From the NCBI GenBank assembly GCA_014871385.1, contig CM026424.1, positions 4,033,131-4,097,130 on the forward strand: a stretch of 64,000 bases of DNA, given 5' to 3'. Source of the DNA: Ceratodon purpureus (lineage: Eukaryota; Streptophyta; Bryopsida; Pseudoditrichales; Ditrichaceae). Shown in pieces: positions 13,341 to 58,870 of the stretch. The notes under the pieces were generated by a model, which saw only the letters and a list, made by a program, of their open reading frames with translations, did no database searches and was not told the origin of the DNA. The first letter of the stretch is position 1; every line of letters starts with the position of its first letter. The position numbers and the translations under genes were made by a program.

Positions 13341-13361
13341 CGCAACCAAACCCCAATCCCC

Positions 13362-28834: not shown

Positions 28835-28869
<35 letters not shown>

Positions 28870-36588: not shown

Positions 36589-36845
36589 GAATAGTTACAA
36601 CTTAGTACTAAGTGACTAGTTTTCATATACTACAGTTTTTGTAATGTTTTGGTTTGAATTGGTAATGAAATGCTTTTACTTTCATAAATGTATACAACAT
36701 TGCAAAGTCCATGTATTTTGGCTCACGAGTATTTGAATTTACACATTTGTCATTGCGCTTAGCCCCAATATATTATTCTAATGAAAATGTTAGGTTTTTT
36801 TGCATTGTCAAAAATTTACTATCTACAAAATGGGCTGCACGAGAA

Positions 36846-37040
36846 ACCCGCTCGCGCCCCCCCTGAACCCGCTCGCGCCCATTCCCCCTGAACCCGCTCG
36901 CGCCCCCCCTTGAACCCGCTCGCGCCCCCCCTGAACCCGCTCGCGCCCCCCCCCCTGAACCCGCTCGCGCCCCCCCCCTGAACCCGCTCGCGCCCCCCTG
37001 AACCCGCTCGCGCCCCCCCCTGTACCCGCTCTCGCCCCCT
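36846..37040. repeat. Right subterminal array of ACCCGCTCGCGCCCCCC units
   Basis: About nine units of TGAACCCGCTCGCGCCCCCC of 18-27 bp, in inverse orientation to the left array at 28679. It ends about 230 bp from the right terminus. Confidence 0.85.
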
Positions 37041-38089: not shown

Positions 38090-38850
38090 CTACGCAAAAA
38101 AAATAACTTGTAGTTAGTCTTGATTTAGAGTACATTATAATCTTGATTCCTATATTACAGTTATTGCATGTCAAACATTCTAAATAATTGGAAAAGGAAA
38201 AGGACCTATCTTGTCATTTATAAAGAAGCTGTGTTCTAATGAGGTAAAAACGGTACAATTTGTACCTTATAGAATGAAGCAGCTCACGGTAAACAAATGT
38301 GTTATAGGATGAAGCAGCTCTCGGTAAACAAATGTGTTATGGATGAAGCAGCTCTCGGTAAACAAATTTGTGCTTCCTACAATGAACACCAGCATAGAAG
38401 AGTTGGTAATTAAACTTTCAGCCGAGAATATAATAGCAAGCCGACAATTCATTTGGACATAAAGTGAGCTCAGTCACAAGCCATAGCTTAACAACAGTTG
38501 GTTTGCATGAGGCAAAAACTAACTCCTTCAGCCCAGAGAAAAGGTCAACCTTCCCGACAATATGAATAAGAGGCAACAAAATTGAAAACAACAATCCATC
38601 ATACCACAAGCAGAGCAAACAATAAGCTCAAGGTGCAATGTATTAATAACCATTAAACCCCACAAACAACTAAGAGTGCTGGTGAACTTGTCTAATGTAC
38701 GTACCACACAATGAGCATAGCACACCGGAAGCATGACAAATAGAACAGTAGCATAAGAGCAGCAAACAAGTTAGCAAAAGTCAAAAGGATCTTACAAAGA
38801 AACTGAAGAGGTGCAGAGGCCCACGAAGAGAAGATGTGGAAAGTATGTGA

Positions 38851-38859
38851 CTTATATAG
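38851..38859 (-). promoter_or_regulatory. TATA box of gene A1
   Basis: CTATATAAG in the minus-strand reading, followed within about 60 bases by a donor-like GTAAGA. The upstream side is rich in GGCGGC, as is the A2 promoter. Confidence 0.6.
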
Positions 38860-39030
38860 AAGTCGGAGGCGGCGCCAGGCGGGAGGCGGCGCAATATCAA
38901 AGGAGGCGGCACGAAATCCAAGGTGGCGGCGCGGAATTAGGCTTTCTACCCTAATCGAGCCGCGGATAACCAAGCAACGTGGCGGCCAAGGTCAAGACAA
39001 GATATCATGGCGGCCAGGGTTTTGGAAAAT

Positions 39031-39200
39031 GGGCCGGGTTCCCCTCATTACGGACCCTTCCCATACCCGGCTGTCGGATTTTGGCGCACCAATCGTTGCC
39101 CTCCCCCGGCGCGGTACCCTGGCAGATGCACATCCGCGAAATCATCAGTCGGATCCGACACTACGTTTTGGGTTCCAAGAAAAACCATGGGTGGCTCCCT
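39031..39200. repeat. Dispersed repeat R, copy 1
   Basis: A 170-bp segment aligning collinearly with 57574-57741. Shared landmarks are GGGCCGGGTTCCCCTCATTA, ACCCGGCTGTCGGATTTT, GGTACCCTGG, AAATCATCAGTCGGATCCGA, CACTACGTTTTGGGT and CCATGGGTGGC. It contains one near-perfect copy of the 14-bp palindrome (39147-39160). The 39201-39831 stretch to its right is AT-rich and without features. Confidence 0.8.
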
Positions 39201-39831
39201 TGATGAACCCCGGTGGGTTTGCTAACGAGCCCAAACCACCACAGAAATCCGAGAGATGGTTTCTGCGATACGCGAATGTCGCCGGGGTCGGGCCAGATGG
39301 TGCTCGGAAAATGTTAAGTCCATGACGCGTCGCAAACGGCGATAGGCGAGTTATAAACGGGGTTTTGAGAATATGCATAAGACATGATGTTTAGCTATTT
39401 ATAGAATTTAATTGTTGAAATAAAAAGCAATGATATGCAATTATCTATATTAGTACTCTTATTGTATTCAGTACCAGGAAATAGAACCATAAGAAATAAC
39501 TTGAAATTGTATACTCACTATGGATAGAACGTAAATATTATATGAAGTAAAACAATAAATATAAAAAATGATATACAAATGAAGCAGTCAATAATTATTT
39601 TTGAAAAATGAAAGCAAGGACGATTGTAATAGATGCTATTTCTACCTTTCATAATTCATATTGCTATTTCTACCTTCTATAGTTATTGTCAGATTTCATA
39701 TTAATACAATCTATTACTAAGTGTGTATTTTGTACAATTTTAAAATCAGAGGATTCAAAATAATATGAAGTGGATTACGGATTTTTTTAAGTTCAAAAAA
39801 TAAATTAGAAATGCCTCTTTTTCATAAAATT

Positions 39832-40864
39832 TCAAAGGTCCAAGTGCTCTAGTTTTGGACGCTTTGGTGGTTGATCTTCAATATCAGGTTCTCTTGTCCG
39901 CTTCCGTATTGGAACCGAGTCAAATCGTTTTTTCCATATTGATCCAGTTTGTCCACATCCAACTCGGTCCAGCCATATCCCTTCATTATCTGCTTTCCAT
40001 GCGCAATCTATACAGTCGATAGGCATTGAAACGTGGTTCACTAGAGGAGGTTTCCATATTTTAACATCTCTACGATATGCCATACTCCCCAGGTCTTTAA
40101 ATTTGCATATCCAAGGCGAACTGAGTAAACGCTCGTCGGTGCGTGGATTTAAGGATATGTAAAAAAAATCGTTCGGAAATGTGTGCTCGAAGTCGTCCAG
40201 GAATTTTCACAGTATCCATTGGGGCATCCTTAACTCCAAATGTAAGCAGTAATTCATCATCGAGATCATTGAAAATAGACACTCTATACTCCTTCAGAAA
40301 TTCGTGGTGGTCCTCGTCCTCCTTCCATTGCTTAAAAAGCTTGTACTGATGTCTCCCGCTAAAAGGATGGAACTGAGAAACATACAGACCATCTCGTTCA
40401 ATATTCCATCGGCACAAATATGTATCAGGGCTGGGACCTTGTTCACAGATTGGACAATGGTCATCGTTGAAATTTGCATCTTGGTGCCGCATAAGACGAG
40501 CATGTGGATGCTCCCAGATGCACATGTGATCTATCTCATACTTTATGGCACAATTCCATTCGCGGATTTCGTATTCAAAATCGCAAAACAAATTATCTTC
40601 AAAATCGAGAAGACCGCGGCCAACTTCGACAGATGCATGAGCTTTGATTTGATCAAAGACGACATTTTGCTTTATTGGCACACCACGATCATATTGCTTT
40701 TCGAAGCAATCTAGCCATACCTTCTTCGGAATATTATTTGTAATTTCAACTGGTGACAATACATTCTGTATAATTTCCTCATCAAATGATTGTACTTGTC
40801 GGAAAGGTGTCAGAATTAAGACATAGAATAGTGGAAAAACGCATTTAAGTTTATGATCTGCCAT
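39832..40864 (-). pseudogene. Orphan gene B, about 343 aa, with one frameshift in a T8 run
   Basis: ATG 40864 opens a 255-codon frame. At 40163-40170 the coding strand has eight T (CGATTTTTTTTACAT). Counting seven T would carry the reading into the frame FFYISLNPRTDERLLSSPW..MAYRRDVKIWKPP, which stays open to 39832. The product would be a Trp/Asp-rich protein with CDFEYEIREWNCAIKYEIDH, a Cys pair in DDHCPICEQGPSPDTYLC, RWNIERDGLYVSQFHPFSG and a basic end (PIRKRTREPDIEDQPPKRPK). No family was recognised. The break may be a real decay mutation or a sequencing homopolymer error. The first 25 residues are hydrophobic but not a clear signal peptide. Confidence 0.55.
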
Positions 40865-41467
40865 GCTATTAAGTAAATGTGAATTCTAATTGAAGATTAG
40901 GAAATTCAAAATTACGAGGACAGAACTTTTTTGTTTCAAATGTTGACAAAAAGAGTTGTGCATTAATTCCATCCTTCCATATCACTCATGATGCCTTATC
41001 AGTAAGAGATATACCCTTTGAATATAGAGAACGGTTTAGCATAATAGTTATTTAATTCAACTTCCTTCTTCATATCACTTTGGAAGCCATTTCAGTAACA
41101 GTTATACCCTTTGAATATAGAGAACGGTTAAAATAGCAGTTATTTAATTCAGAGATTACCAGTACTTATCCCGCACACTTCCCGAACACTTGCAGTTAAT
41201 GCTCATATTTAAAAACTTATAATTTAAATGTATGCGACAATACTAATGAAATCTGAGGAATAAAATGAATCGGAAAATGGACAGAATCATTCTGAAATGA
41301 ATAGGGCAAGCAAATAATATTTTTTTTAGCCGATATATGTACTTTAATAAAATTACAAAAATTTACAAAATGGAATGCTAATATAAGCGTCAGTAGCGGT
41401 ACAAGAAATGTACACAAGGAAGAAAATATACTATGCCGAAATTTCACGTAGATCTAAGGAAATACAT
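40865..41467. other. Intergenic between gene B and A2
   Basis: AT-rich. It contains two copies of an approximately 60-bp direct repeat around TTTGAATATAGAGAACGGTT (41015-41063 and 41108-41153). No gene was seen. Confidence 0.5.
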
Positions 41468-41932
41468 CTAGTCATCCGAGTCACTGTCATCGTCGCTAAG
41501 AACGATGACATAGGACTCCGGACCATCCACCGTCGCTTCGGTATCCTCCTCTGCGGCGTACTCTAGGAAATCAGAGTCTTCGCCTTCTGGAACATACCCG
41601 TCATCCTCCGGGCAGTACTCATTTCCGTCGCCGCCTGCAGCAACCGCATCCATCCACTTTTGCACCCACTAGGGGATGCCATCATCGGAACTCTTCACTT
41701 CGAAGCAAATGGAGCGCCCATGACCTTCCACACACATTAACCGCATCGTCTCTTTGGGCTGGGTTGGAGATGCACCTTGCAAGGCTTGGTGCTCGATGTC
41801 AGGCAGTGGAGTGACTCCTTCTGGATTTCGGGAATCAGGGACTAGACTGCTCCGGGATGTTGGACAGGTGCATGGTCCGAGCCCAATGCATGTCGTGCAA
41901 ACCATTGGAACTCTAGAAGAAAGATTCGCCAT
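41468..41932 (-). pseudogene. Orphan protein A2, paralogue of A1, one in-frame TAG
   Basis: ATG 41932 (preceded by TGTGAGCAG, an acceptor) runs to TAG at 41671-41669. The same frame then continues to 41468, giving about 154 codons. Alignment with A1 is clear: CTTCIGLGPCTC with CKSCLVGGACSC, LMCVEGHGRSICFEVKSSDD with VMCVQGHGRSLYFEVDSFDD, WVQKWMDAVAA with WVQRWMEKHAA, and an acidic SDDDSDSDD end. The TAG falls between Pro and Trp of the PPW motif. The TATA box at 42861 and the probable 0.9-kb 5' UTR intron repeat the A1 layout, so the two loci duplicated with their promoters. Confidence 0.6.
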
Positions 41933-42860
41933 CTGCTCACATGAAATATAAAGACGTTAATACGATTCATCGTAATGTCAGGCATACATGCATCGACCTT
42001 TTATCTTGTACGATTGGGCCCTTCCTTGGCAAGCCAAGTCAGATGTTTATGCTTGTAATAGCTCTTTAATTACGACAGTATGCCAAGAAGCATAACACTT
42101 AGCTTGGTGACCTCTTTCTGCGGTTGGATGAATGTGAAGAGTTCCGAGCCGCGAGCAACCAAGAACTAACGAGCCTAGAAAAACCAATACTCCCAGGGAA
42201 ACATGAAACCAACATTTCGTTACCCCCAATCAGATTGCAGAGTTCTGAGGCAATGATATTATTAAATTTGTATGACCCATCATCAAACTGTTTACAGTTT
42301 AGTGCGCAAAATAGCAAACAACCTGCCACACTCCCCAAAGCCGAACCATTCGACGACTCATCTGAACAGTTCGAAGGCGCTAGCCACCAGGAACAAACCC
42401 GCCCAAAAAAACCAACACTCATGGGAAAACATTACATTACATCGGATGTGCAAAGCAGACTTCGCTGATGGCTGCTAGACCAAACATGACAATAGAGCCA
42501 TACAGCCGAGGCAGAGATGGTCTATGTAAGTGACCTTTAGTTTACAGTTAGAGTGCACATCGACGTGCCCATTTGACCACCTAAACCCCATGGTACCAAG
42601 GTGTATGCAACGGAGCAAACAACCCGCCAAACTCTCCAAGTCCGAACCCATGGACGCATGCGTCCCCCTAATTCGGCGCTAGGCTTAATAAAACAGACAC
42701 TAAATTGGCTCAATTAGCACAAAGCAAAGAAACACATGGTGACGTCAATAGAATCATACCGACTGCGATCCAAAGACGAACCTTAAGAGATCAGAGAGAT
42801 GATAAAGAAACGCACCTTAAGAGATCGAAAAGAAGATGATGAACAGTGCATTTCAACTTG

Positions 42861-42870
42861 GTTTATATAG
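42861..42870 (-). promoter_or_regulatory. TATA box of A2
   Basis: CTATATAAAC on the minus strand, about 930 bases upstream of the A2 ATG. GGCGGC repeats follow upstream. Confidence 0.55.
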
Positions 42871-42933
42871 GCCTCTTGGTGGCCAGAAAAGGCGGCTTTG
42901 GCGGCTAGGTCAGTGAGAACCATGGAGCCAAGG

Positions 42934-42937
42934 ATAT

Positions 42938-42970
<33 letters not shown>
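42934..42970. repeat. (GGC)n trinucleotide repeat
   Basis: About ten consecutive GGC units, with further interrupted GGCGGC to 43010, upstream of the A2 TATA box. Confidence 0.9.
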
Positions 42971-42971
<1 letters not shown>

Positions 42972-43074
42972 ACCTTTAGGTCAGGGCATGCGCTAGCGGC
43001 GGCAACGGCAGCGGCAGCTAAGTCCGCGGCTGTGGAGACCCCGGCGGTGTTGGCGATAGGCCAAACCAACCTCT

Positions 43075-43095
43075 AAAATCCGACAGACGGATTTT
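43075..43095. promoter_or_regulatory. Inverted CTGTCGGATTTT-type motif between A2 and the 158-aa ORF
   Basis: AAAATCCG, five bases, then CGGATTTT: an inverted pair of the CGGATTTT core found in repeat R. It lies between divergent genes, like the palindrome at 23279. Confidence 0.5.
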
Positions 43096-43160
43096 GCCAA
43101 CAACTTGAGCCACCGGGGTCGATTGTTATGGTGAGTGTGATTGTGAGGGGGTGTTGGTGA

Positions 43161-43460
43161 GGCCGAGGCTGAGGGTGATGGTCAGGGTCAGAGCTGAGTA
43201 TCAAGGTGAAGGTGAGGGTTTGGACCGAAGATTATGGTGAGGGTGTGGGTGAGGTGAGGCCGAGGCTGTGCGAGATGGTCAAGATCAGAGCCGAGGATCA
43301 AGGTGAAGGTGAGGGTTAGGGCCGAAGATAATGGTGAGACTGTGGGTGAGGTGAGGCCGAGGCAGAGGGTGATGGTCAAGTCAGAGCCAAGAATCAAGCT
43401 AAGGGTGAGGGTGAGGGCCGAAGATTATGGTGAGGGTGTGGGTGAGGCGAGGGTGAGGTG
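43161..43460. repeat. 97-bp tandem repeat, about three copies
   Basis: GGCCGAGGC recurs at 43161, 43258 and 43355, a 97-bp period. The units are made of GGTGAGGGT/GATGGTCA-like blocks, highly purine-skewed on the plus strand. Confidence 0.88.
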
Positions 43461-43529
43461 AGGGTGAGGGTGACGCTCAGCGCCGAGGATCAGAGTGCGG
43501 GTCTGGAAGAGGGTAAAGGCTGAGGGTCG

Positions 43530-44006
43530 ATGGCATTGTCACGGCGCTCCGAGCTCCGTCGTGTAGAGCTCATTCGAAGATTTAAGCGCCAGATCGCCAA
43601 AGCCTCTTTGTACCTAGCTTCAGTAGATATTTCAACAGAAAAGTCAGGTTTAAAGCTTTCCCGAGAAGATGTCTACGATTGTGAGGACGTAATGGTTGAC
43701 CTAGAGGTCCAAAGACTTGAGTCTATTCTTGTGCAGCACGAGCGCGCCGAGCTTCGAATGGCGATGGCAGATCTTTCAAAGACAGTAGATATCTCTAATG
43801 GCGCAGAAGAGTATATGAGTATGATGGAGGAGGTCTTTGAGATTCTAATTTTACCTGGTTGTGTTCCTCCACGAGATATATTTGAGGGTGTTACTAGGCT
43901 CAGGCTCATCCCTGATGAGGAAGTATGTAATTGTCGCAAATCAGAGGCAATCCAGAAGGAGTATTTTGACATTAGTCTCGGTGCTTGGGTAGTGCAGTTG
44001 TTTTAA
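43530..44006 (+). CDS. Orphan ORF, 158 aa
   Basis: ATG 43530, directly downstream of the purine-rich repeat. The sequence has even composition and looks coding: basic N-terminus (RRSELRRVELIRRFKRQIAK), a helical middle (LEVQRLESILVQHERAELRM, MSMMEEVFEILILPGCVPP), then FEGVTRLRLIPDEEVCNC. No known domain. It is divergent from A2, with the inverted CGGATTTT pair between them. Confidence 0.45.
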   Translation: MALSRRSELRRVELIRRFKRQIAKASLYLASVDISTEKSGLKLSREDVYDCEDVMVDLEVQRLESILVQHERAELRMAMADLSKTVDISNGAEEYMSMMEEVFEILILPGCVPPRDIFEGVTRLRLIPDEEVCNCRKSEAIQKEYFDISLGAWVVQLF

Positions 44007-45584
44007 TGCATTGGGTATTTTCAGCAGTTGTATTAGCACATTGTAGAAGATGTACAATAAGGACTTTGTTGTTAGACTATGTACATAGAGTTTGGAATGA
44101 AGTACAAGAAAACATGCGTACAATGAAATTTCATCTATTTATATGATACCCATTCTCTGAGTTATCAGATTCTTGCATATGAGTTATACAGGTAAATTTG
44201 CACTATGGTGCACCCTGTTTATTAAAGTAGTTAAGTATGTCCTTGCATCGAAGAAAATTTGAATAAAAGACCGATTAAAGCAACCATAAAGCATCTAATA
44301 CCAAGACTTGAAACATGATACAAGACTTGAAACATTCTAACATGAATCATATATTATAGGCATCAAAAAATGAACGATATACATGGTATAAAGATGAAAG
44401 GACATTAAAATGATGAGAGATCAATTCATTTGACGATTAAGCAATTAAGAGAATGAATGTAAGAAAGAATGATAAAGGTGAGTCAGAAAAAAAAGATATC
44501 CAAAAAGGACTGATAAAAACAGAAGGAGAATGCACAAATGCAGGGATTATAGAATAGAAGAAAAATGCATATTAGAAGGACGGCAAGGTTGAATGATGAA
44601 TCGGGAATATAAAGCATCATTGATTGAATGATTAGAAGGTTCAATTAATGAATTCAATAGATTTGCAATTTATAATTAAATGGATTTTGTTTATGAATAG
44701 CTAGCTTTGATAATAAAAGAGGAAAATAAATAAAAGTGAAACGGATAAAAGAATGAGAGATTGATCGGATGAGCAGCAAAATATTGTAAGATCAATTGCA
44801 ATAGCAACCATGTGCCGAACCGAGCAGGATAAACCATGGTTTAAACCAAGCACTAGATAGGGCATGGAACGAAGCGAGTGATCGACCCCGGCGGTTCTTC
44901 AAGCAAGCCAAAAGCAACTGACGGATCCGACACAGGATTTTTGAGCTCCGAGAAAACCACCGGGGTCGGTGGTAGGTGTGGCCCGGCAATAGGATATCGA
45001 CTTGCGGTTATGGGCGTTTTCAAATGAACTGCATGCGATTATACATGACGGACAATTGGTAACCTACTCCTGGATCCGAATTCGATTGTATAAGAATTGT
45101 GCGCATAGCTTTATAAGAATTAAAATAGAAAAAGTTTACAAATCATTTAATTTTTATTTTCTTTCAAATAATAACTGTGATATTAACACGAGCTCGGTTG
45201 TATGAATTTTCTAATATTGTTACAATTGATTGAAAATGCAAGAGAGAGATAACTTACTATTGAAGATAGTAGAAACAGATTATCAGAAAAATAAGAGATA
45301 GTGTCCCAAAAATTAATAACAAAACAGCATATTAGCATATGAACAAATAAGATTGAGTCAGCTATTTCATTACTGGCATCAATTTGGAAAGAATAAAGAC
45401 GGTTTAATATAGAAGTATCTAATCATTGCAATGTGGGACTATTATGCATTCATTCAAATCAGTAACTATTAAGCATATTAAGTAAATAGGCCGTATTATT
45501 GAAATGAAGAACTGTAAAATTGAAAATCCGTAGTACATAAGGAATAACTGGAAATCCAAAATTCATTTACATGTAAAACTACGA
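44007..45584. other. AT-rich intergenic region with one R-like repeat
   Basis: Mostly A/T-rich with many GAATGA/AAGAAT words and no gene. 44884-44975 is a partial copy of repeat R, with TGACGGATCCGACA at 44919-44932 followed by a GAGAAAACCACCGGGG stretch resembling the right side of R. Confidence 0.5.
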
Positions 45585-48500
45585 TCACTCCGGATCAACT
45601 AAAATGCTATGAGAGACAACTTCGGCTTCAATATCCACAAAGTTTAGGACTCGACCATCGTATTTTCTACGCGTAAATTTCTTCAATGTGGGAGACTCCA
45701 CATTAGCTTGAAATTGAGCCCCTAGCTCGGCATACTCTGGAAGCCGCAGCATGTCAGGTGATAGTGCAATCTTCTTGATGCACTCGTTAATTATCCCCCC
45801 GGAACGCGGACTTAGCGGTCTGCAACCTCAACCGTATCAAAAAACAGATTCATTTTTAACAAAAAACCATGTCATTTCAAAATGTCACATTTAGAAAATG
45901 TTCATTGAAATACTCACTTACTCGTCGTCACTTTCCTCAGTCATCATGGCGATGAATTTATTCACCGGCTTAGGGGTGGCCAGCACTTCTTTTTCGATCA
46001 TCGGCTTGATCGGTACATGAGATGAATCCGCCTTCGGAAGAGGCAGTGGCGGCAGAGCCAACTTCTTAAGGACTTCTGTATACAGCTCGGGATCATCCTC
46101 AAGCGCAACTATGTTCCGTCCTGACTGCCGGCATGCTTTGATTGATGCACCTGATACAATTGAGTGCCTCTTTGTTAGATTTTAGTAGTTTCAAATTCCA
46201 AAAAAAAGGCCTTGTTCAAAGTTACCTCGCATGTGCAAAAACGACGAGACTTACCCGTTCCGGCGCCGATATCGACGACGACGTCACCAGGGTCGGTGGT
46301 GGCTCTGATTAAGCTCTCGATGAACATCACGTCTTTCTCCCTCGCTCCTCGCCATGGCACCTCCTTGCGCATCGTCTGTTGCTCCAACGTAACCCAATTT
46401 AGGATGACATCACGGTCAACGATGTCGATGCTCTTTTTCTTGTAATCCTCGGGTGTCGGTCTAAAGTCAAAGCTGTTATTCGAGGATAATGTAAGTTGCA
46501 CCTTAAAGAAGCATGTTGTCATGCCGCTTATTTTCGCGGAGCGAAGAAGCAATCTATTGATGCCTGTCCACGACCTCTCAGACTTCAATTCAACCACTTG
46601 ATGAAAATCACGAATCTCGTCCTCAATTTCGCCATTGTCATCCGGATGGATAATGATCACACACCCCTGGTCTTGGAGAACGAGTTTAACAAAGCCAAAG
46701 ACGGCTGCAAGGTAATTGTCGCCTCTGCTGTTCCAATCTGGAATCTCGTCCTCATCGGATATACCAGGGACCGGTAGACCCTCCGGAATATCAATGATAA
46801 TGAGATCTGCCAATCCACCCCCCCGAACACTCTTCCCGTCCTTCATCCGGACCCGTTGCGGGGTGACGCTCCGAATCCACTGGACCATATCGTTGAAAGC
46901 CTTTGGCATGCTTTTCAACCTCCTTTTAGGATTTGCCTTCTGCCACTCAGTTATTGATTCATTCAGAATCAACTCATGAACAGGGCATCTTGCTTGAGGT
47001 GCGCTGACGTCTGGCTTCTCAGCATGTCCAATCCTTGGAGAGAATGTCCCATTCTCCGCACCATTCGGCTCAACAGTCGCTGGGTCCGACTTCTTCCCCC
47101 TGCTCCTCTTCTTCACTGGTTCCTGGTGGGACTCCTTCGATGCCGACTTCGCTCCCCTCTTCCGTTTCTTTGTGTTTGCATCCCCGGCACCAGTGGATGT
47201 CGAAACGACTTGTGTATCCTGTTCTGGCTCTGCATCCTGAGCAGGAAGTGCTTCATCTGAAATATCATGGGTGTCGTCATCCCCATCTTTCCTCTTGGTA
47301 AACATCTCCCTTATAGCCTTCTCCTCAGCAGTTACAAATGACTTTGGGCACTCGATATACCAGCAGCACTCAATTAGATGGTTCAAATTGAACATCTTCC
47401 GCTGGTTGGTTGTGAAGATGAACTCGGAATTCGATGTCTCCGTCCAGCTGAACCACGGAGGTGGTATACTCTTTACTACACCAGCTGGGATGAACTCCCG
47501 CTTAAAGTACCGATACAGACATCGCTTCCAAGCCATATCAGTCCCTGGTTGGGAATTGAATGGTTGCGACTTCGAATACACATTAGCTCCAGTGAAGAAC
47601 GACAAGTATGCCTTCTCCCATAGAAGCACACGCCACTTCTCGATGTACTCGGCCATAGGAGTGCGCTTCGAGTTAATGTCTTCCTCTGCATCGGAACTGG
47701 TTGCCAACCAGTTGAGGCACTCTTTCTCGACTTCGTCTTCCAACTGATACAAAACCATCAACTTAAGAGTGAGACACAAATAACTAAAGAGGACGCCATC
47801 GGCTATAACCTCGAATCAGTGTAACAACCCAGAGTTCTAGAAATAATGAAATACACTTACGTTTGCCCAAAATGCAGCTTTTGTAATCCAGGGGTTAAGC
47901 ACTTCAATTGAGCAAGGTGATGATGGAAACTTCAATGTTTTCCTTGAACTCGCCGACCCGTTCCACCACCTCAGCAATTTCGCTTCCGTTTTGGCCGTCA
48001 CCTCAGATGTTGCAATTGCTTGGAGCTTGTCGATGGTCATTTCAACCTTGGTTTGGTGCCGATCATAATGTCTTTTGATCTGAAAATCAACAGCATCCCA
48101 AGTAATCAGACTAGTGAAGATTAGAATCCGAGAGACATCATTGCATCGAATACCATATTTCCTCATAACAGAGCATTAACTATCTATGTAAAATCATCAT
48201 TTTCTTCCATAGAAAGTGTGTTAGATAACCGCTAAAGGGTCCAACAGCTGATCTGTCATACGAATGCAACACAGTACCATGTAAAGAATACGGTATAGAT
48301 TTCACCTATCGGATGAGACGGATGATTTATCAATGCCAAGTTTCCGAGGTACCTTGGGGTATTCGACACATAAGAATCATCTCTTGGATTTCAGAGAATA
48401 TTTCTTGAGTCTTATAGTCCACAATACCTAGGTAGGTGAACACAAAATTATTCTCTGTCGGATTTCAGAGATGATTTTAGATCGCCAACTTGACAAGGTA

Positions 48501-51500
48501 CCTTGCGGAAGTCGACACATCAATATCTTCTGTCGGATTTTTGAGATTATTTCATGTGTCTAAGTTTCCTAGGTATCTAGGTAGATTGACACAAATAAAC
48601 CATCTGTAATAGATTTTAGATTGTTTACGATATCTAATTTCCTGACGTACCTTGAGGAATTGGCCACATTGAATTCAACTGTCTAATTTCAGAGATTATT
48701 TCTACTGTCTTACTTCCCACAGTACCAAGGTAATTTGACACAATCAAAACCATATGTCGGATTTCAGAGCTAATCTAAATTCTCCAACTTGACAGAGTAC
48801 CCTGCGGTAATCGACACATTAAAATCATCTGACGCATTTTAGAGATTATTTCTTCGGACAAACATTCCAGAGTACCCAGGTAAATGGAAACAATAAAATC
48901 ATCTGTCGGATTTCTAAACTTGTTTGCTATCACCAACTTGACAAGGTACCTTGAGATGATTGACACACGAAAATCATCTGTCGGATTTCAGAGATAATTT
49001 CTTGTGACTAGTTTCCCAGAGTACCTAGGTAAATGGACACAGAAAAACCATCTGTCGGATTCTAAAGATGATTTCTCGACTCAAACATTCCAGGGTACTT
49101 AGGTATTTTTCGCATTTTGAGGCACATTTTCCTTAAAATTATTAAAAAAACACATCATAGAGCAAATAATTGATCCAAATCATCAAAATGTATGTAAAAT
49201 CTCTGTGGTACCTTGCTACCATGAGTGTTATAAATCGATCTGTCGGATTTTTTAGAAAATTTCCGCGAGCTCATTGGGCACATCCCCTCGGAATTTGAAC
49301 GTCCGAAATTTCTCATAAAAATCCGACAGATCATTTTCGCGAGCTCAATGGGCACATCCCCTCGGAAATTGAACATCCAAGATTTCTCATAAAAATCCGA
49401 CAGATCATTTCTACGAACTTAATGGGCACATCCCCTCGGAATTTGAACGTCCGAAATTTCTCATAAAAATCCGACAGATCATTTTCGCGAGCTCAATGGG
49501 CACATCCCCTCGGAAATTGAACATCCAAAATTTCTCATAAAAATCCGACAGATCATTTCTACGAACTTAATGGGCACATCCCCTCGGAAATTGAACGTCC
49601 GAAATTTCTCATGTAAATCCGACAGATCATTTTTAAGGAGCTCAATGGGCACATCCCCTCGGAAATTATACATCCTAAATTTCTCATAAAAATATGACAG
49701 ATCATTTCTATGAACTTAATGGGCACATCCCCTCGGAATATGAACGTCCGAAATTTCTTACAAGAATCCGACAGATCATTTTAAAGGAGCTCAATGGGCA
49801 CATCCCCTTGGAAATTATACATCCTAAATTTCTCATAAAAATATGACAGATCATTTCTATGAACTTAATGGGCACATCCCCTCGGAATATGAACGTCCGA
49901 AATTTCTTACAAGAATCCGACAGATCATTTTAAAGGAGCTCAATGGGCACATCCCCTTGGAAATTATACATCCTAAATTTCTCATAAAAATCCGACAGAT
50001 CATTTCTACGAACTTAATTGGCACATCCCCTCGGAATATGAACGTCCGAAATTTCTCATAAAAATCCGACAGATCATTTCTACGAACTTAATGGGCACAT
50101 CCCCTCGGAATACGAACGTCCAAAGATTTAAAGAATAATCCGACAGACCATTTTTGAGATCAATTTCCACTCATCACCTCGAATTTTAACATCCTATATT
50201 CAAAGAATAACCCAATTGATCAACTCCAAAGTATTTACCTCGTTTTGAAATCCCTTGCCATGGATTGGATTTGCAACGCCCTGCTCTCTGTTGAACTTTG
50301 TTTGTAGCCTGTCCTTGGCTTCCTTCACGGCCTTGTCCACAACTGCCCTCATCTCGTGCCCTGAATCATCACCAGAGTGCTCGTTGATCCAAATTTGAGA
50401 AGCCTCCTCTGCGACTTGGGCCAATGTTGCCTGTTTCAGTCCACGTGCCATTAACATCTCGGGACTTGAATCATCCAATTACGAATTGACAGCACTGATT
50501 TCTTATAACACTTACGCTGTGTAAAAACGTCACAAATACTTCTTGAGGCATCGAGTGCCACGACTTCTTAGTTGAACTCTTCGTGCGCGCCAGAAGATCC
50601 GGCGTTAGAATTCCACTCCTTTCCAGCTCCTCCACAGACATTTGCCCGTACGTCTGTATCTTGTGTAGAGTGTGCGGCAGCCTTTCTTTGACGTAAGCAT
50701 CCTCATTGGCCCTGTGTCGAATTCAACACACACTTCTTTAATATCAAAGATTCTAATTTTCTATGTTATTATATCCAACATCAACATCCGGAGAAAACAC
50801 AATACTCTTGCACAGTTTAAGACTCACTTGTTGATGGCATGCATTGCTGTCACTAGAGCTTCACGGCTTCCCTTCACATCGAGCAGAATACAGTCCGGCC
50901 TTCCGTTTGCTTTAGCCCATTCAAGATCATCTGGGTATTCCACTTCGATGAACTCCCGCCATGCCCTTGTGCGGTGGTTACCATCAAAGACATAAAACAT
51001 CTTTCCTGTAAGATCTTTTGTCTCCCTGTGCTGCCTGATCTCATCCTCGAACGCAACGTTCAACACCTTCCAAGCGTTACACCATCCTGACTTCATCTCC
51101 TCGGTGACACTTGCGACGTCCCTCATGTGCGATGTATCTGCTACATAAAATGCCCCAGACCCGGGTCTTATGCCGTTGAAGAACTCAGCTTGCAACTTCT
51201 GTACATCACTCTACATTGCTGGACGCACGAAATCACATGGGATTAACCGGCATAAGGGAATCTTGATCATTGAATATTGGTGAGGTCTGCGGCGCATTTT
51301 GAGTAATGCAGCGTATGGGTCCGGTTTCAACTCCTCCCTGAATTGACGGAATGCTTGCCGAACATTCACAGGCTTTCGAGAAGGTTCAATCTCTTCCACC
51401 TGCCCACCAAGGCTCAATAGAGTATCAGCGCCGGCTTCGCCATCACCAACTTGGGTCTGATCCTCGGTGTGATCGTCATCCTCCTTGCTGTCCTTGTCCT

Positions 51501-51816
51501 TGCTGGGTTCTTGCTGAAACCAGTCCTCCTCCGGCTGCTCACGCGAGCCATCCTCCTGCTGCTCATGCGAGCCGTCCTCCTGCTGCTCACGCGAGCCCTC
51601 CTCCTGCTGCTCGCTCGAGAACCCCGCCTTGCCCACTTCAGCATCTCCTTCGAGCAAGGAGCCCATAAAGTTTACTTTTGGAGGGGCCCTGCCATTACGG
51701 ATGGGAGGTTGCGAACTACCCATATCCTTGTCCATGAAGTGACCTCTCGGAATATCGTCTATCACGCTCTTCACTGCCTCTGTGGCCGCGTCCACCATAT
51801 TGTGGGAAGTGCTCAT
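45585..51816 (-). CDS. ParB/sulfiredoxin-like domain fused to an N6/N4-type DNA-methyltransferase-like domain, 7 exons, 1188 codons, one in-frame TAG
   Basis: Exons by hand, all GT..AG and phase-compatible: 51816-50828, 50702-50516, 50457-50239, 48079-47861, 47743-46255, 46150-45922, 45819-45585. Residues 1-180 are disordered with 10-residue EQQEDGS repeats. Residues 186-329 resemble ParB: IPLCRLIP, later FYVFDGNHRTRAW (DGNHR at 278-282), then RPDCILLDVKGSREALV. The middle is helical. A Lys/Arg-rich linker (KKRKRGAKSASK; PVKKRSRGKK) is a likely nuclear signal. The C-terminal part has the order of beta-class amino-methyltransferases: ADLIIIDIPEG (856-860 in place of DPPY), FGFVKLVLQDQGCVIIIHP, EKDVMFIESLIRATTDPGD, VVDIGAGTG (1027-1035) and, across a splice, SGRNIVALEDDPELY. 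The changed DPPY raises doubt about catalysis. TAG at 51213-51211 (codon 202) interrupts the ParB part. The exon 6 acceptor and frame were confirmed by continuity of the motif. Confidence 0.72.
48330..49125. repeat. Degenerate tandem array with CTGTCGGATTT cores, inside the ParB-methyltransferase intron
   Basis: Roughly nine or ten units of about 80-90 bp. Each contains AAATCATCTGTCGGATTTCA or a close variant, and alternating GGTACCTTG..GACACA or GTACCTAGGTAAATGGACAC. The GGTACC..ATCATCTGTCGGAT order is that of repeat R at 39.0 and 57.6 kb. Confidence 0.8.
49226..50195. repeat. Tandem array of about twelve 75-bp units in the same intron
   Basis: The unit contains AATCCGACAGATCATTT, then AATGGGCACATCCCCTCGGA, then CGTCCGAAATTTCTCAT. 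Spacing varies 73-78 bp. Copies drift (CCTTGG for CCTCGG; ACATCC for CGTCCG) in an alternating pattern that suggests two-unit higher-order duplication. It lies wholly between exons 3 and 4 of the gene. Confidence 0.92.
51530..51620 (-). repeat. Coding 30-bp minisatellite in exon 1 of the ParB-methyltransferase gene
   Basis: Three 30-bp units encode GSREQQED-type decapeptides, with a fourth partial unit. It keeps the reading frame. Confidence 0.85.
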
Positions 51817-52771
51817 CGCGCCCTGCAAGGTAGAGGCACGTCACATGCAGGTCAATAGAAGGCCGCATTTTAGAGCACAACAAATACACCCAAATGCGAA
51901 GCATAACATCATAAACCCTAAAAAGTCACAAAAACCCTACGCAGCACTTACAGATGTAATGCGTATTATACGGCAATCCGTCACTAGTTGTTGTGCACTG
52001 CCAATGATTAAAGCCTTGAACACACGCCGCACTTGACACCCACAAACCCTTCTCGGCCACAATAATTCAGACCTCGCACTATCCACTTACACCTTGCAAT
52101 GGCAAACCAAATGGAGATGTGCTCTGAAGCCGCCCCTCTCAGACCCTCTCAAAACCTATACTTACACCATTTCAGCATACCCTCAACCTACAAAAGAACA
52201 TCACTCCAAACCCCCTCCATGCATCTCTGACCTCCAACACCACAACCCTCAGGAAACTGAAGAGGAAGGCTCGCCGTCTTTCAATTTATGCGTGCTTACT
52301 CCCTTGCCTCGAGTGGCTTCTAAGTCACACTTCTTGCTCACTCCCTTGCCACGATTAGCTTCTAAGCCACACTTCCTGCTCGCGGCGGCCCCCACTCTAC
52401 CCTAACCTCGACAACCATCACTTTCTACAGCTAACTACAATGATGACCGCACCAACTTCCTACGCAAAGATAAGTATGACAATGACTGTGATGCATGCCA
52501 AGAACCTTCAAACTTTTAAAACCCTCATAAGCCATTAGTACACACCGCGGCCGGCTTCAACCCGGTTGGATGATGACTACAACCACTCCCTCCTCTACGC
52601 CGAGCGTACCATGAAAATTGCGACAGCAAACTATTAAACCATAAAACATTTATCATGACGATCACACCACTCACTATTCTGAAGCCGCAAACCAGTCCTA
52701 CGAGTATTTGATCCCGACCTGGCACTGGCTAGCGAAAATCTCGCTGATCAATCATGATGCTACAGCTGCGT
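51817..52771. other. 5' region of the ParB-methyltransferase gene and intergenic
   Basis: CTTGCAG at 51823-51829 (minus reading) directly precedes GGCGCG-ATG, so a 5' UTR intron probably ends there. A direct repeat of about 41 bp (CACTCCCTTGCC..GCTTCTAAG) is doubled at 52298-52380. No other gene was seen. Confidence 0.4.
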
Positions 52772-53146
52772 CTAGAACGTACCAAGACATCGTGCTGACA
52801 AGCTTACATCAGAATGTCGCGGCTGAAGAATGGAACTGGCGTGTAGATCGCTGAACACCCTCCTTGAGACGGCCACCGTCATTTGCCCGTCGACGAAGTG
52901 ATTGCTGCTAACTTTCGTGGCCGATCCTCCAGTGTTGACGCTCGGACACCCTTCAATCTTGGATCTCGAGTCTCTGAGAATAGAGCTTACTGAACGAACA
53001 ACCTTGCTTTGACTCTTGCTCTGACTCTGATACTTCATGTCCGTCAAGCGCAACCCCGTCTTACTCTTTCTGCGCTTCTTCCCTGATCTCTCCTGGGTTT
53101 CTTCACTGGGGGAGCCTAACCCCCCACTCCGATGTGACTTGGGCAT
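52772..53146 (-). CDS. Small basic orphan ORF, 124 aa
   Basis: ATG 53146 is preceded by CCGTCACAG, an acceptor-like site as in A1 and A2. The protein is Ser/Lys/Arg-rich with a nuclear-signal-like KKRRKSKTGLR and no domain. It may be the first coding exon of a longer gene. Confidence 0.35.
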   Translation of the reverse strand: MPKSHRSGGLGSPSEETQERSGKKRRKSKTGLRLTDMKYQSQSKSQSKVVRSVSSILRDSRSKIEGCPSVNTGGSATKVSSNHFVDGQMTVAVSRRVFSDLHASSILQPRHSDVSLSARCLGTF

Positions 53147-53592
53147 CTGTGACGGTGAACGTAAAACTTACTTCGAAGACAAAACCAGCTCATAGTCTTA
53201 TCAGATCCTTGATGCATTGAGAGAGAAATGAACCTCAACCGTGCTATGTTGAAAATGACTAAGGCCAATGTGTGATGCACTACTTAAGGCTAAATGTCCC
53301 CCACCAAGCTCTGAGTTCGCCTATTAATTGAGGTTCCATAGGGCGTCATAGGCTTTGCCATGACGGTTTCTTCTCATAGACGATTTATTTTTGAATCTGT
53401 CACTCATTAATGCTGATTGTGTGCCCAAAATAAAAGCTGTTCAACAATATTCTGGGACATGATACTGGTCTTGAACCACGCTGCAATGGTGAACTATCAC
53501 CTACTTGGTTACAAAATTCTTAAACCACCCAATGCAACAGCCTTCCTGCTTCACTTCCGCTCTTCCACTCTGTACACATCATACCCGTAGAG
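53147..53592. other. Upstream region between the 124-aa ORF and the MULE transposase
   Basis: Short divergent intergenic stretch. No TATA box or repeat was recognised with confidence. Confidence 0.4.
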
Positions 53593-56500
53593 ATGGCTCG
53601 TATACGTGCTGAAGGTCACGATGTTCCATTCTGTGTCCCATGTAATTCGGAGGGTGTAGGGTCGATTACCGCTGGCTTGTTGAGCGTGAGATACAACCTT
53701 GTTCTTGAGTCCGTCCATCTTGAGGAAGAAATTGTTAACGACGACGGCGAATTGATTCAAACTGTATATCAGATGCCGATTAGAGCTAAGGATGGTAGGG
53801 AGTGGCTTCTTGAGGCCAGAAGATATGTCGTGAGGGGACTCACCGCGGATCGTTGGGCTGCATCCACTGAGATATTAACACCGGGCCGATCCATGACATC
53901 GACTGTCGATGTTGGAAACGAGCCAAATCCTCCTTTGAAACAACCCGTAGCTCAACGCATTCATGTCCTAAGTGAGTCAGATAAGGATGATTTCGTTACG
54001 CCGTCCCAAGCTCAGCCTGGTTCTTCGCAGAAACCAGTATCGGGTAGCTTCAGTGTCATCCCCGGCCTTATGCGTCTTTTTCCCAGACCCGGAGCGAGGA
54101 ATGCTTTGTCGAGGTTGGACTTTAGAGCACTTCAGAGGGATCGGGTGCCAGTTCTACCGACCGAGTTTAACGGGGACGTGCTCTTCGAGCTTCCACCAAT
54201 CCCTGATCGCGGCACTGCAGCGAGCGCAAAGTCGATGGCAGGGATGGATAAGAAGTACGACGCACATCCATGGTGCAAGACCATGACGACCAACATCACT
54301 AACGACCAAGGACTGACTTTCAGATATTCTGTATGTGCAGGTCATCTGAAATGCCAGAACGAGAAGTGCGACTTCTTGCTTCGAGGAGACAAACGGAAGA
54401 TGGAGGTGAACGAGTCTGAGTAGGACGGTGTCACGCTTACCCTGTTTGTCGTTGGTTGTGATCCTCCTCCGAAGTCCACACTTGTATGCAAGATCTGCAG
54501 ATATCCCCCGGAATGTATCGCCACGTGCCCTGCAAGGATGTACTACGTGCTCGGGAATCCTGCGATGTCACGTGCGTGTATCCATATCGGTACACATAAC
54601 CACCCTGTTGGATACGTTGAGTGCAGGGAGACCAAGCAGAAGGTTCTCGACCTACTCGAGTTGCATATGCAGAACAATCCGTACGCCAAGACATCGGCCC
54701 TAGCTCTAGAGGCGAGTAAGGATTTTCTGAGTGAGTACCTCCTAACAGCACCGGGGGAGAAGCGGACCATTCTGTCGGACGAAGAGTTGGATGAGTCGTT
54801 CAAGAAGTATTATACACTCAGCAAGCCCGGGCTTAAGAACGCCGTGACGACCTTCAGGGGGGTCGGTAACCTTGGCATTATCGACGGCATCGCTGCCTTG
54901 CGGGGCTGCAGCAAGTGGGAGTTTATTCACGACAATAAATTTCCCGGTCAGGGTTCTGAAGGGGACAAGGTTTTTATCTTTAAGATGTCCGAGAAAGGTC
55001 CCGGGTCGGGAGTGGACCTTGTAAAGCGAATGCAACCTGGCGGGGATCTCCAGGATTCCTGGATTATGTTTGATCACGTCAAGCGCACAAAGGGTTGGAC
55101 AACCATGGCATGTCATGTCTATGACTCTCAGTATTGCCGGGTCATGACTATCGCCATTTGTGATATGCAGTGAGAAGACGTGAGGGCCCAGACCGTGATG
55201 TGGCAGTTCCTGAACGGAATTATGGCAAAACATGGCTATCACGAAGTCAACTTCAAGGGCTTCATGGCGGACAGCGCCCAGGCCAACTGGAACTGTGTGC
55301 GGAAGATCTATGGAAGTGGCGACGCGACGGTTCCAATGCCAGACCGTGAGCGTACGTGCCAGTTTCATTGGGCAACCTCACTTAGGAAGCACACTGAGGC
55401 TCACATCATCGGATCAGATTTGCAGAGGCAGCATTACGTGCTTTGCAAGCAGTATCGTGATGCAAAGAACATGGAAGAAGCCGACATTCGTTTCCACGCG
55501 ATCCGAGCGTGGTGGACCTCCTCAGGCGCTACTACTGCCTCCTGTCTTCGTGACCTCAAACTTTGGCTCGTATTTTGGCACTTTAGATATCGGCAGTGGG
55601 GAGGCTTCATGCAATTGGTGAGTACAACATCTCTTTTTTTATCCAGTCACTTAATACACTTATTTGACGTAGAATTGATTGAATCAGCAATTTCTTTGAT
55701 TGCAGGACCTTACGGACGCCGAGAAGGACGAGATGCCCTCTTGCAACCTCTCGGAGACTGTGCACAATATATGGCTTCAGATGTCGGGCAATCGTGGCGA
55801 CAACATCTACTTTGCCACGGTGGACGATTATGTCAGGGGCTTCATGCAATGCACTAACTATAGCGCCTACCTGCGAGGTGAGACCCCGGGTAAGGGACCT
55901 TGCAAAGCCGAACTCCGTTTACGGCGAGCTCAAAAATCAGGGATTCCCAAGCGCCTTGCCGATGCCACTGAACACTTCCATGACGCTCCACAGTTGCTCT
56001 CCCGTGAGCCACATCGCGAAGGCGAGGAGCTCTTTGGGTCCACGAAACGGAAGCTGAATCAACCGATCGGATCCGAATATGACTCCCACAGGCCGGACAA
56101 GGTAAATTTTTCTCAACCTCGTCTGAGCACTAGGAATACGCGAGCACGCAAGGAGCCTGATCCTGAACCAGAGGATTCACCTCCACAAAGGGTCCAAGCG
56201 GCACCCCCATCGCCAGTCTCAAGCCCGGACGAGAACAGGAGTCGTCATCACGTAACCGCTGTGGAGGAGACGGATGTGGACGAGAGTATGTGGCACCTTG
56301 TCAGGCTTCCAAAGGGATCGGCGAAGGCGTGTTTTGCTCAACAGGCGAGGACGAATAAGAAGTGCACGGCGAGGCTCATACGGGGAAAGAAGGCTACAAT
56401 TGTGCCATGCTACTGGGGCATCTTCACCGACGTCAGGAAGGATCAGCAAAAATGGATGCAGTTCTGCTTCTGTAACGACGACATCCAGAGATGCGTCATG

Positions 56501-57154
56501 GGTACTAAGCGGAACTGGGTCTCCAGCATGCCCCCTCCCCCACTTATCTGGCCTGTCAAGCGTGGCTCTCGCCTTTCAAAGAGGGAGATACTTGACCTCG
56601 AGGGAGCGGGTTTCAGACTCCCTCAACGCCAAGAATTACCCGCTCACCAAGTTTTTCACGACGGTGCATCACTCCCACAGCGGCCACGGTTTGACCTCTC
56701 GCAGTGGAGTGTAACCCCAGCTCCAGGAATATATCCCACGGTGCGAGGAGGATTCAAGATTCGGCGCTGTAACCGGGTGCCACGAACAGAGCACGAGAAC
56801 AACTGGGCCTCATCTACTCTACTCACCATTCGAATCCAATCAGTCACACTCATACCTAACCCAGGTTTCGGGTGCATCATCAGCGTTGTCTCTGAGACCG
56901 TATCGGAGTCTAACGTCTACAAAATAACAATTGGCCCGGAGCCCGCCTGCACCTGCCCCAACTTCAAGGAAATGTCCATCAAGTCGCTGGGAAAACGACC
57001 TCCCTGGGTGCCTTGCAAGCATCTCTATTACATCTTCAATGCTATATGCAACCTTGATATTCACCAGGACTCCTACATCCATGCTCCAAGCCTCAGCTTT
57101 AACGAGGTCAAGGCTATTTTTCAGAGTGGCCTTCTTTCGCTTATCAATGTCTAG
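53593..57154 (+). pseudogene. MULE-type transposase with SWIM zinc finger, copy 1: 2 exons, two nonsense codons
   Basis: Exon 1 is 53593-55617 and exon 2 is 55706-57154, joined L|D in phase 0 with GT..AG; 1157 codons in all. TAG at 54421-54423 sits where the fragment at 22.06 kb has Trp (NETEWDG). TGA at 55171-55173 sits where copy 2 has Ser (CHMQSED). In order: variable N-terminus; Cys/His DNA-binding region (CAGHLKCQNEKC, then ICRYPPEC and HIGTHNHP, WRKY/GCM/FLYWCH-like); the MULE core with MTIAICDMQ, GFMADSAQANW and CQFHWATSLRKHTEAH; MPSCNLSETVHNIW; and a SWIM finger CTCPNF..VPCKHLYYIF (CxC..CxH) near residues 1088-1112. MULE enzymes cut and paste DNA by a D-D-E RNase-H fold. Terminal repeats of this copy were not found. 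Confidence 0.8.
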
Positions 57155-57573
57155 GTTTGCTTCTGATGTGTCTTTTTCCCCTACCTTCATCCTAGGGCGC
57201 TCGGTACGAACTCGGTGACATTTTTATTCCTATTACGTCACAGATTAAAGCGGTGGCAAAACAGCTCGTATTCATGTCGGATATTCAGATCATGTGTTGG
57301 CATGAGCATCGTTTAGTATACGGTTCAATCCAGACATTTTTGTATATTTGTATTTATTTCTATAAATATTCTAAGTTTTTCCAGAAATTGATCTACTTTA
57401 TGCGCCAACGATAGTAAAATTTCATATTATCAATGGTACCCAATCACACCGAAGACATAGAATGCACATGCTCTCACTTCTCTGCTATCTAACCGTTGCA
57501 TCCATCCAAACGCCGTCGCACTTCTCATCCCGAATAACGTTGTCGTCATGGCATAATGAAGAATTCTGATATT
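57155..57573. other. Downstream of the MULE copy 1
   Basis: AT-rich, nothing recognised. Confidence 0.4.
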
Positions 57574-57741
57574 GGGCCGGGTCCCCCTCATCACGGCCCC
57601 TTCCCAAACCCGGCTGACGGTTTTTTCGTCCATTTCGTTCCCTTCCCGCGGCAGGGTACCTTGGCTCAAGTCCGTCCCCGAAATCATCTGACGGATCCGG
57701 CACTACGTTCTGGGTCCGAACCAAAACCACGGGTGGCGCCC
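57574..57741. repeat. Dispersed repeat R, copy 2
   Basis: Aligns along its whole length with 39031-39200: GGGCCGGGTCCCCCTCATCA, ACCCGGCTGACGG, GGTACCTTGGCTCAAGTCC, GAAATCATCTGACGGATCCG, CACTACGTTCTGGGTCCGAA and CACGGGTGGC. It contains TGACGGATCCGGCA (57689-57702). It lies 455 bp upstream of the 224-aa ORF. Confidence 0.8.
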
Positions 57742-58145
57742 TTCCACCACTTCAGAGAACTACCCTACGGGTAACAAAATGACATCTCAGTAATTTAAGT
57801 CCGGTAAAATTCATGTTGATCTCCCGGATGACACAATATTGCAGGGATCCTACTGCCGGATTTTTTTGCAGGTATATATCCCGTTATATAATCATCCCGT
57901 TTGCTCCATTAAGAGAGATATATGTATTGTATTCTAAATGATGATTAGATAATGTTTTGGAGGTCATTGAAATGCACGCTTTCTTCATAACCAGAGTTCA
58001 AAAAATCTCTGTAAACTCACCTGAATCCTGCCAGACTGCTGCCGAATTCGTGAGAGTACGATACACCTCAATCGATAAAGCTGTATTCAATTACCAATGT
58101 TTCATTGCTGTTTCCGGCGCTCTGTGATTGCTTGTGGGATGATCT

Positions 58146-58153
58146 CTATATAT
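58146..58153 (+). promoter_or_regulatory. TATA box of the 224-aa gene
   Basis: CTATATAT lies 43 bases before the ATG at 58196, leaving a leader of about 15-20 bases. Confidence 0.55.
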
Positions 58154-58195
58154 GAGGTTGGTGGAGATCGCATAATCATTCTCAGCTGAAGCCTC

Positions 58196-58870
58196 ATGCC
58201 AATGGACCTCGCGATGAAACCAATCTATTTTAGCCTAGGTGAGAAATCGCGAATTATGTTAGACACCAGCTCCATGATGGATCCGCAGATCGGGGATATT
58301 GTATTTCGCAAACCCTCCGCCCAGGCCAAGATTGAGTTCTCACTCTACCAGTGCGCTGAGGATTGGTCTCAGAATTTTAAGACGTGGCTTTTGAAAGTGT
58401 TTACCTGCAGTGTGGTCTTTGATGATCAATTTCTCCATTCTGTTGACGCTCCAAAGATGATAAGGTGCATCATGCTTTTTGTCTGGGTACCTGGCCAAGG
58501 CTTTCAGGAAGCACCTTCCGGAGGAATCATGACACCTCATATTCCTCCGAGTGAGTCCACAACCTTTCATCGACTGAGTCAGGTGGGGTTCTTCCCGGAC
58601 GGCAATAGCGTGACGTTGTGTTTTGCGCAGCCCTCCCCACCCGACCCAGTCACGTTTCTGAGAGTCGATTTCTGGCGGGACACGTACCGCCAGGAAGCGT
58701 ATTCGGGGCTGCAGGTTCTTAACGTTGTTGACAACCCTTCCACGCAGTGCCCTACGCTGCGCATGATTTCTCTATGGAAACGAAATGGCGAAAGATGGAT
58801 TTGTGATAGTTCTGTGATAGGTCCAAGTCTGCAGTCTGTATCGGAGGTGGCAAAGGAAGTTCCCGTTTGA
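58196..58870 (+). CDS. Orphan protein, 224 aa
   Basis: ATG 58196 to TGA 58868-58870, with a TATA box at the right distance. The sequence looks genuinely coding and well folded: IYFSLGEKSRIMLDTSSMMD, FSLYQCAEDWSQNFKTWLLK, IMLFVWVPGQGF, FLRVDFWRDTYRQEAYSGL, ISLWKRNGERWIC. Alternating hydrophobic segments suggest beta strands. No signal peptide or membrane segment. No family was recognised. It follows repeat R copy 2. Confidence 0.5.
   Translation: MPMDLAMKPIYFSLGEKSRIMLDTSSMMDPQIGDIVFRKPSAQAKIEFSLYQCAEDWSQNFKTWLLKVFTCSVVFDDQFLHSVDAPKMIRCIMLFVWVPGQGFQEAPSGGIMTPHIPPSESTTFHRLSQVGFFPDGNSVTLCFAQPSPPDPVTFLRVDFWRDTYRQEAYSGLQVLNVVDNPSTQCPTLRMISLWKRNGERWICDSSVIGPSLQSVSEVAKEVPV

Follow-up and report, generated by a model that had tools for sequence, protein, structure and literature searches.

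We analysed a stretch of 64,000 nucleotides from the moss Ceratodon purpureus (contig CM026424.1, positions 4,033,131 to 4,097,130 of the forward strand; the whole stretch is called the window), in which a minus-strand gene between 51816 and 45585 appears to fuse a ParB-like domain to a DNA-methyltransferase-like domain. Seven exons joined in frame give 1,182 codons and an end stop. A preliminary description of the locus, made from the sequence alone, had proposed this architecture; the motifs it quoted do lie on the minus strand within these coordinates, and its seven exons are phase-compatible. Its single protein stands as regards the phases, but an in-frame TAG at codon 202 had been overlooked. 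The parts of the gene are listed below, with relatives labelled P0001 to P0006.

50828..51816, minus strand: exon 1, with an acidic low-complexity N-terminus and then the candidate ParB-like domain (IPLCRLIP ... FDGNHRTRAW ... CILLDV ... HAINK); relatives P0004–P0006
51211..51213, minus strand: codon 202, a TAG stop in the reading frame and within the ParB-like domain; P0004 is open there
50863..51009, minus strand: core of the ParB-like match, residues 270–318 (TGKMFYVFDGNHRTRAW to CILLDVKGSR), the sole part with statistical support
50516..50711, minus strand: exon 2, continuing past the ParB-like domain; placed by splice phase alone, no homologue found
50239..50430, minus strand: exon 3, CAG acceptor; the preceding intron is 85 nt
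48080..50238, minus strand: intron 3, 2,159 nt, most of it made up of two minisatellite arrays
47861..48079, minus strand: exon 4, with no codon-position signal; no homologue found
46255..47743, minus strand: exon 5, a middle region with basic stretches and then the methylase domain up to motif I
46772..46801, minus strand: methylase motif IV, IIIDIPEGLP, whose fourth residue is E where it is usually aromatic
45922..46150, minus strand: exon 6, the remaining S-adenosylmethionine (SAM)-binding motifs (GASIKACRQSGRNIVALEDDPELY), from the splicing model and the match to P0001
45585..45819, minus strand: exon 7, a putative, unproven C-terminal tail without homology support

All six introns have the form GT...CAG when exon 3 is started at 50430, and apart from intron 3 they are 85–117 nt long. 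GTRAGT donors occur in five of the six, against about 1% of GT dinucleotides strand-wide (37 of 3,695), a figure that is descriptive only because the splice sites were chosen by us. A weaker acceptor for exon 3, GAG just before 50457, would add nine codons; it was used in our first gene model and replaced in the adopted one, which starts the exon at 50430. GC content is higher at first than at second codon positions in every exon but exon 4. Exon 5 contains two basic stretches that resemble a nuclear localisation signal, KKRKRG (47170–47153) and KKRSRGKK (47113–47090). Judged from sequence, the gene is real, and conservation in relatives is better evidence for this than the donor consensus. 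Rfam and tRNA scans found nothing. The minisatellites of intron 3 (48347–50153) comprise a 149-bp period in 4.9 copies and a 74-bp period in 12.1 copies; both arrays have a common core like ATCTGTCGGATTT, in opposite orientation, and a similar core is found again at about 43071–43095.

We compared the C-terminal half of the product with known methylases. The spliced product matched PF01555 above its cut-off (E 4.6e-7, 30.5 bits; cut-off 26.7), as did P0001 (E 1.9e-8, 35.0 bits, profile positions 2–217 of 221). Exon 5 alone reached 15.0 bits, below the cut-off, because part of the SAM site lies in exon 6, and a PF01555 scan of the fragments P0002 and P0003 gave no match. When a methylase profile of the four-member family (the query with P0001–P0003) was compared with eight phage methylases (L001–L007 and L012, chosen from the hits of several searches), the score was 108.9 (E 4.6e-16, 204 columns); the highest of 100 column shuffles was 22.8. 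The order of the motifs, with IV (DIPEG) ahead of I (DIGAGTG), is that of the permuted N6_N4 type (beta-class). In a phmmer search of the whole product against PDB, the 13 matches were all weak (best E 0.0022) and 11 were to methyltransferases; profile searches of PDB sequences found nothing relevant, including no ParB match. PADLOC assigned methylase models to P0001 (25 of 27 listed), mostly type II, with mad2, orphan and type III among the rest; it had none for P0004 or exon 5. We consider homology to N6_N4-type methylases secure. With the PF01555 and profile matches, the preliminary description was right to see an intron-bearing plant nuclear gene with a DNA-methyltransferase-like domain.

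The sequence DIPEGLPVPG is identical in all four family members that cover motif IV (the query, P0001, P0002 and P0003), of which P0002 and P0003 are alike to each other but share only 33–38% identity with the moss sequence. All four have DIPE and so lack the catalytic (D/N/S)-x-P-(Y/F/W) motif, whereas the fourth position is Y or F in all eight phage methylases (DIPY in the best-scoring, L007; DVPY/DIPY type in L001). The aromatic residue of motif IV usually stacks on the flipped base. The glutamate in its place suggests that methyl transfer has probably been lost or strongly changed. Decay of the window copy as the source of DIPEG was ruled out, since the same motif is found in relatives. 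Its presence in distant relatives indicates that the glutamate predates the split of the lineages, and that the active site was altered long ago. The preliminary description took DIPEG as a possible sign of binding without methylation; the relatives show the motif to be a trait of the family, not private to the window copy.

We next consider the N-terminal half. In a tblastn search with the ParB-like piece (residue 202, which lies outside the matched stretch, was filled in from a relative), three of 50,697 phage records matched at E=1, namely RedWattleHog 206 and Stormageddon 207, the latter recorded twice. All three matches lie in the ParB half of a ParB–methylase fusion, and the match covers residues 270–318. 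The Stormageddon gene is annotated merely as a DNA methylase/methyltransferase, but in its product an N6_N4 methylase makes up the C-terminal half, and the first 160 residues match PHROGs ParB families (E 1.9e-48 and 4.2e-47); the RedWattleHog protein is identical to it across the 165 residues compared. Searched against PHROGs, the moss sequence gave phrog_1033, ‘ParB-like partition protein', in the GNHR segment (E 0.14), and besides it only an uncharacterised family (E 0.22).

A profile of the moss ParB-like domain, compared with 12 phage ParB-type proteins picked for diversity (L006 and 11 of the 60 listed of 337 records), scored 23.2, which none of 200 column shuffles reached. Controls gave 13.0 (reversed), 16.3 (moss ParB-like against phage methylase) and 18.1 (moss methylase against phage ParB). 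The C-terminal half of the domain, from the GNHR box to ILLDV, scored 22.4, and the domain minus its insert 22.5, in both cases with none of 200 shuffles as high; for the insert alone, 37 of 200 were as high or higher. Statistical support thus comes down to a core of 36–63 columns around DGNHRTRAW. In box II, the nucleotide motif of G-x-H/R-R type, FDGNHRTRAW is aligned with phage LAGNHT/IVGNHR with the GNH box in register (0 of 200 shuffles as high), and by eye the moss GNHR retains the arginine. Used as a control, PF02195 was found in seven of ten phage ParB-type proteins (five above cut-off) and not in L008, L012 or L013 at E≤1; in L006 it was not found at E≤0.01, and L018 was outside the scan. 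It is likely, at about three in four, that the N-terminal part is ParB-like. Of the domain named in the preliminary description, the C-terminal core is favoured by the phage comparisons, while PF02195 is absent and the N-terminal half unsupported; the profile search it had suggested gave PF01555 above its cut-off, as described, and no PF02195 match at E≤10.

Relatives were found for each half. P0001 is KC19_N032100 of C. purpureus, an annotated 275-aa methylase-only model, identical to exons 5–6 at 265 of 275 residues (96%) and one of three proteins found at E≤0.01 with the methylase piece (1,046 candidates); a whole-length protein search found none at E≤0.01 (among the 7,995 candidates scored, those with the most words in common with the query). 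P0001 lies on a record (47 kb) separate from the window, as a diverged copy at another locus or an allele, and stops where the last intron, before exon 7, would begin. P0004, P0005 and P0006 keep the ParB-like domain, with overall identities to exon 1 of 97%, 55% and 53%, respectively (72% and 73% for P0005 and P0006 over 56–57% of the query). All three end exactly at ...HAINK, the point at which the exon-1 donor (AA|GTGA) would bring in a stop codon; this common end suggests a common intron position.

In exon 1, ten of 330 positions differ between the window copy and P0004, the stop included. Of the nine that are substitutions, five have the P0004 residue also in P0005 or P0006 and none has the window residue there, so that the derived states lie with the window copy. 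With its reading frame interrupted at codon 202, this copy is likely non-functional: probably a pseudogene, be it a paralogue in decay or a null allele. A short intron that would excise the stop was considered and rejected: the sole in-frame GT...AG pair spotted nearby by eye is 30 nt long, below plant intron size.

Taken together, these observations could be explained by a moss nuclear gene family in which an N-terminal ParB-like domain (ParB/sulfiredoxin fold) would be joined to a C-terminal permuted N6_N4-type methylase, as in phages and prophages. Its ancestor was most likely taken from a phage or bacterium and would later have gained introns, the acidic N-terminus and the basic residues for nuclear targeting. 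The protein would have been retained for DNA binding, with the ParB-like domain binding nucleotide via the GNHR box and the methylase domain binding SAM and DNA, methyl transfer having been lost or changed. From splice phase, domain order and neighbourhood we infer a single fusion transcript. We give somewhat better than even weight to the reading that a captured phage-like ParB–methylase fusion has a DNA-binding role in mosses and that the window copy is broken. More tentative, and to us rather less probable than not, is the narrower proposal that the captured fusion now works in the nucleus as a DNA-binding protein gated by nucleotide, distinct from sulfiredoxin and serving as a pseudo-methylase reader or clamp. 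A SAM site retained alongside replacement of the catalytic aromatic residue would favour such a protein over an active methylase.

Several points weigh against a captured fusion. The moss profiles are shallow, with three (ParB-like) and two (methylase) sequences after the hhalign filter (effective sequence numbers 1.27 and 1.19), and the whole-domain margin for the ParB-like part is thin (23.2 against a shuffle maximum of 22.7). PF02195 was absent from all four members of the alignment (the query and three relatives) at E≤10, in a search from which HMMER's filters remove most weak hits. The N-terminal half of the domain scored 8.1 and was matched or beaten by 173 of 200 shuffles, its likeness to box I being visual only. 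Two structure models had confidence (pLDDT) values of 32 and 35, too low for any statement on the fold; the ParB-like one (35) was an AlphaFold model from a three-sequence alignment. Exons 2, 3, 4 and 7 had no homologue in our searches, and no relative was found that spans both halves. The three best-matching phage methylases (L007, L003 and L001) are stand-alone by length, 238–271 aa, and the sole ParB match is a fusion, so the two halves have no one common best donor and do not point to a single fused one. As the frame is otherwise open, the lone stop could equally reflect an error in sequencing or an allele that is still segregating.

A rival reading is that the locus holds two adjacent genes, a ParB-like one (exons 1–3) and a methylase-like one (exons 4–7), split by the 2.2-kb repeat-rich ‘intron 3'. 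KC19_N032100 is a methylase-only model of 275 aa, none of the sequences found spans both halves, and the connecting intron is largely minisatellite. However, both parts lie on the same strand and in the order of the phage fusion, the GT-AG junctions are phase-compatible, and the unspliced frame closes 12 codons past exon 3; we regard two genes as unlikely. Similarly improbable, though with slightly more weight, is an N-terminal plant domain unrelated to ParB, with a chance GNHR-like motif, fused to a methylase-derived domain. It would fit the lack of a PF02195 match and of a ParB match among PDB sequences, as well as the unsupported first half of the region; the phage tblastn matches, the profile score of 23.2 and the C-terminal-half test argue for ParB, and the motif order fits ParB by eye.

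It is also possible that intact members of the family are active enzymes with an altered site, which methylate DNA (N4-methylcytosine, 4mC, or N6-methyladenine, 6mA) or another substrate via DIPE, with the ParB-like domain for targeting. The moss sequence retains motif I for SAM binding, the GRN...E...Y motif after it, and the D and P of motif IV, which is DVPY or DIPY in two phage methylases (L001 and L007); DIPEGLPVPG is strongly conserved, and according to the available text of PMC8885841 Marchantia and bdelloid rotifers have active 4mC methylases that came from bacteria. Against this stand the Y or F that all eight phage methylases have as fourth motif residue, and the loss from the moss sequence of an HPxxKP-like stretch ahead of motif I (read off the profile alignment); we hold an active enzyme to be improbable. 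Least probable of all, in our estimation, is that the gene belongs to a transposable element or is its cargo, as the preliminary description had suggested. Transposase-like remnants are abundant in the window (MULE-like by eye at 53524–57154; hAT/DUF659 at 29233–32352) and a second diverged copy or allele exists (P0001), but the flanks (38000–45584 and 51817–60000) hold no exact inverted or direct repeat above chance (longest 13/14 nt; 30 inverted-repeat null maxima of 12–16), in a test of exact repeats that could miss imperfect ends. There are 40 inverted pairs in 36000–64000, and among the 25 that were listed none brackets the gene.

Elsewhere in the window, remnants of related genes that look transposase-like, with a SWIM-like C...C..H motif, lie on the plus strand at 53524–57154, 61104–61724 and 21315–22112 and are MULE-like by eye; four pieces scanned gave no Pfam hit (61104–61724 was outside the scan), and the stretches 54872–55316 and 61306–61750 are 69% identical. 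A 1,039-aa frame at 29233–32352 (minus strand) contains DUF659 and a hAT dimerisation domain with a long acidic tail, and is possibly an intact hAT-type transposase gene. GC-rich arrays of CCCGCTCGCGCCCCCC lie near it at 28661–28954, 33562–33817 and 36845–37039; the first runs in the opposite direction to the others, an arrangement that may mark element ends. Close to these arrays is a unit of two open reading frames (34138–36588), the second with a RING-like match just below cut-off. A single 1,028-aa frame at 10284–13370 (minus strand) has many TPR repeats and resembles CTR9 of the PAF1 complex. Inverted repeats of 134 nt at 61778–61911 and 62883–63016, 93% complementary and with each arm nearly palindromic, are perhaps a small foldback element.

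Searches beyond plants gave pattern matches in IMG/VR viral contigs (ParB-like and methylase parts) and in GTDB genomes (methylase part only), with no relative confirmed in either; a plasmid search with the ParB-like part found no relatives. The preliminary description had noted fusions of ParB with N6/N4 methylases in phages and bacterial mobile elements, and for phages this is borne out by the Stormageddon protein and by PMC12704722: Gordonia phage Stormageddon gp207 (phrog_498) has the same order of a ParB-like N-terminal and a permuted methylase C-terminal part, and N6_N4 methylase fusions of the ParB fold are, in the accessible part of PMC12704722, commoner in phages than in bacteria. Compared with the phage fusions, the moss gene has introns, an acidic N-terminus, a long middle region and DIPE for DPPY, and its ParB-like part carries an insert of roughly 35–45 residues. 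Of the eight phage methylases compared, the two fused ones, L006 and L012, gave lower scores with the moss methylase half than the remaining six did. Searches of the open-licence literature turned up no plant ParB–methylase protein in the titles and opening abstract lines of the matches listed. Phages are known to combine ParB with an N6_N4 methylase; what is new here is a plant version of the pair with introns and an altered site.

ParB-fold proteins bind CTP, ATP or GTP, and alteration of the box-II arginine abolishes binding, according to the same portion of PMC12704722, a 2025 survey of the fold that searched eukaryotic proteomes with PF02195 at the gathering cut-off. The moss family lies below that cut-off, so such plant proteins would escape the survey. 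Sulfiredoxin (Srx) is a small protein that carries a catalytic cysteine. It has the ParB fold and is, in the available text of PMC12704722, the commonest eukaryotic representative. The moss protein differs from it in having the DGNHR motif and a methylase, which Srx lacks. The 4mC methylase of Marchantia is known as DN4MT1. Like the moss protein, it and the bdelloid N4CMT are bacterial-type amino-methylases in a eukaryotic nucleus, N4CMT being of the permuted PF01555 type; both are active, a chromodomain is present in N4CMT, and the enzyme of Marchantia lacks extra domains at either terminus (PMC8885841, as far as its available text goes; the comparison is by description only). The opening of the frame in P0004 at the position of the stop means that function could be tested in moss. 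If our interpretation is correct, the family would bring a ParB-derived DNA-binding switch other than sulfiredoxin into the eukaryotic nucleus, and would stand beside the 4mC methylases of Marchantia and bdelloids as another eukaryotic capture of prokaryotic DNA-modification machinery, in this case with a changed active site.

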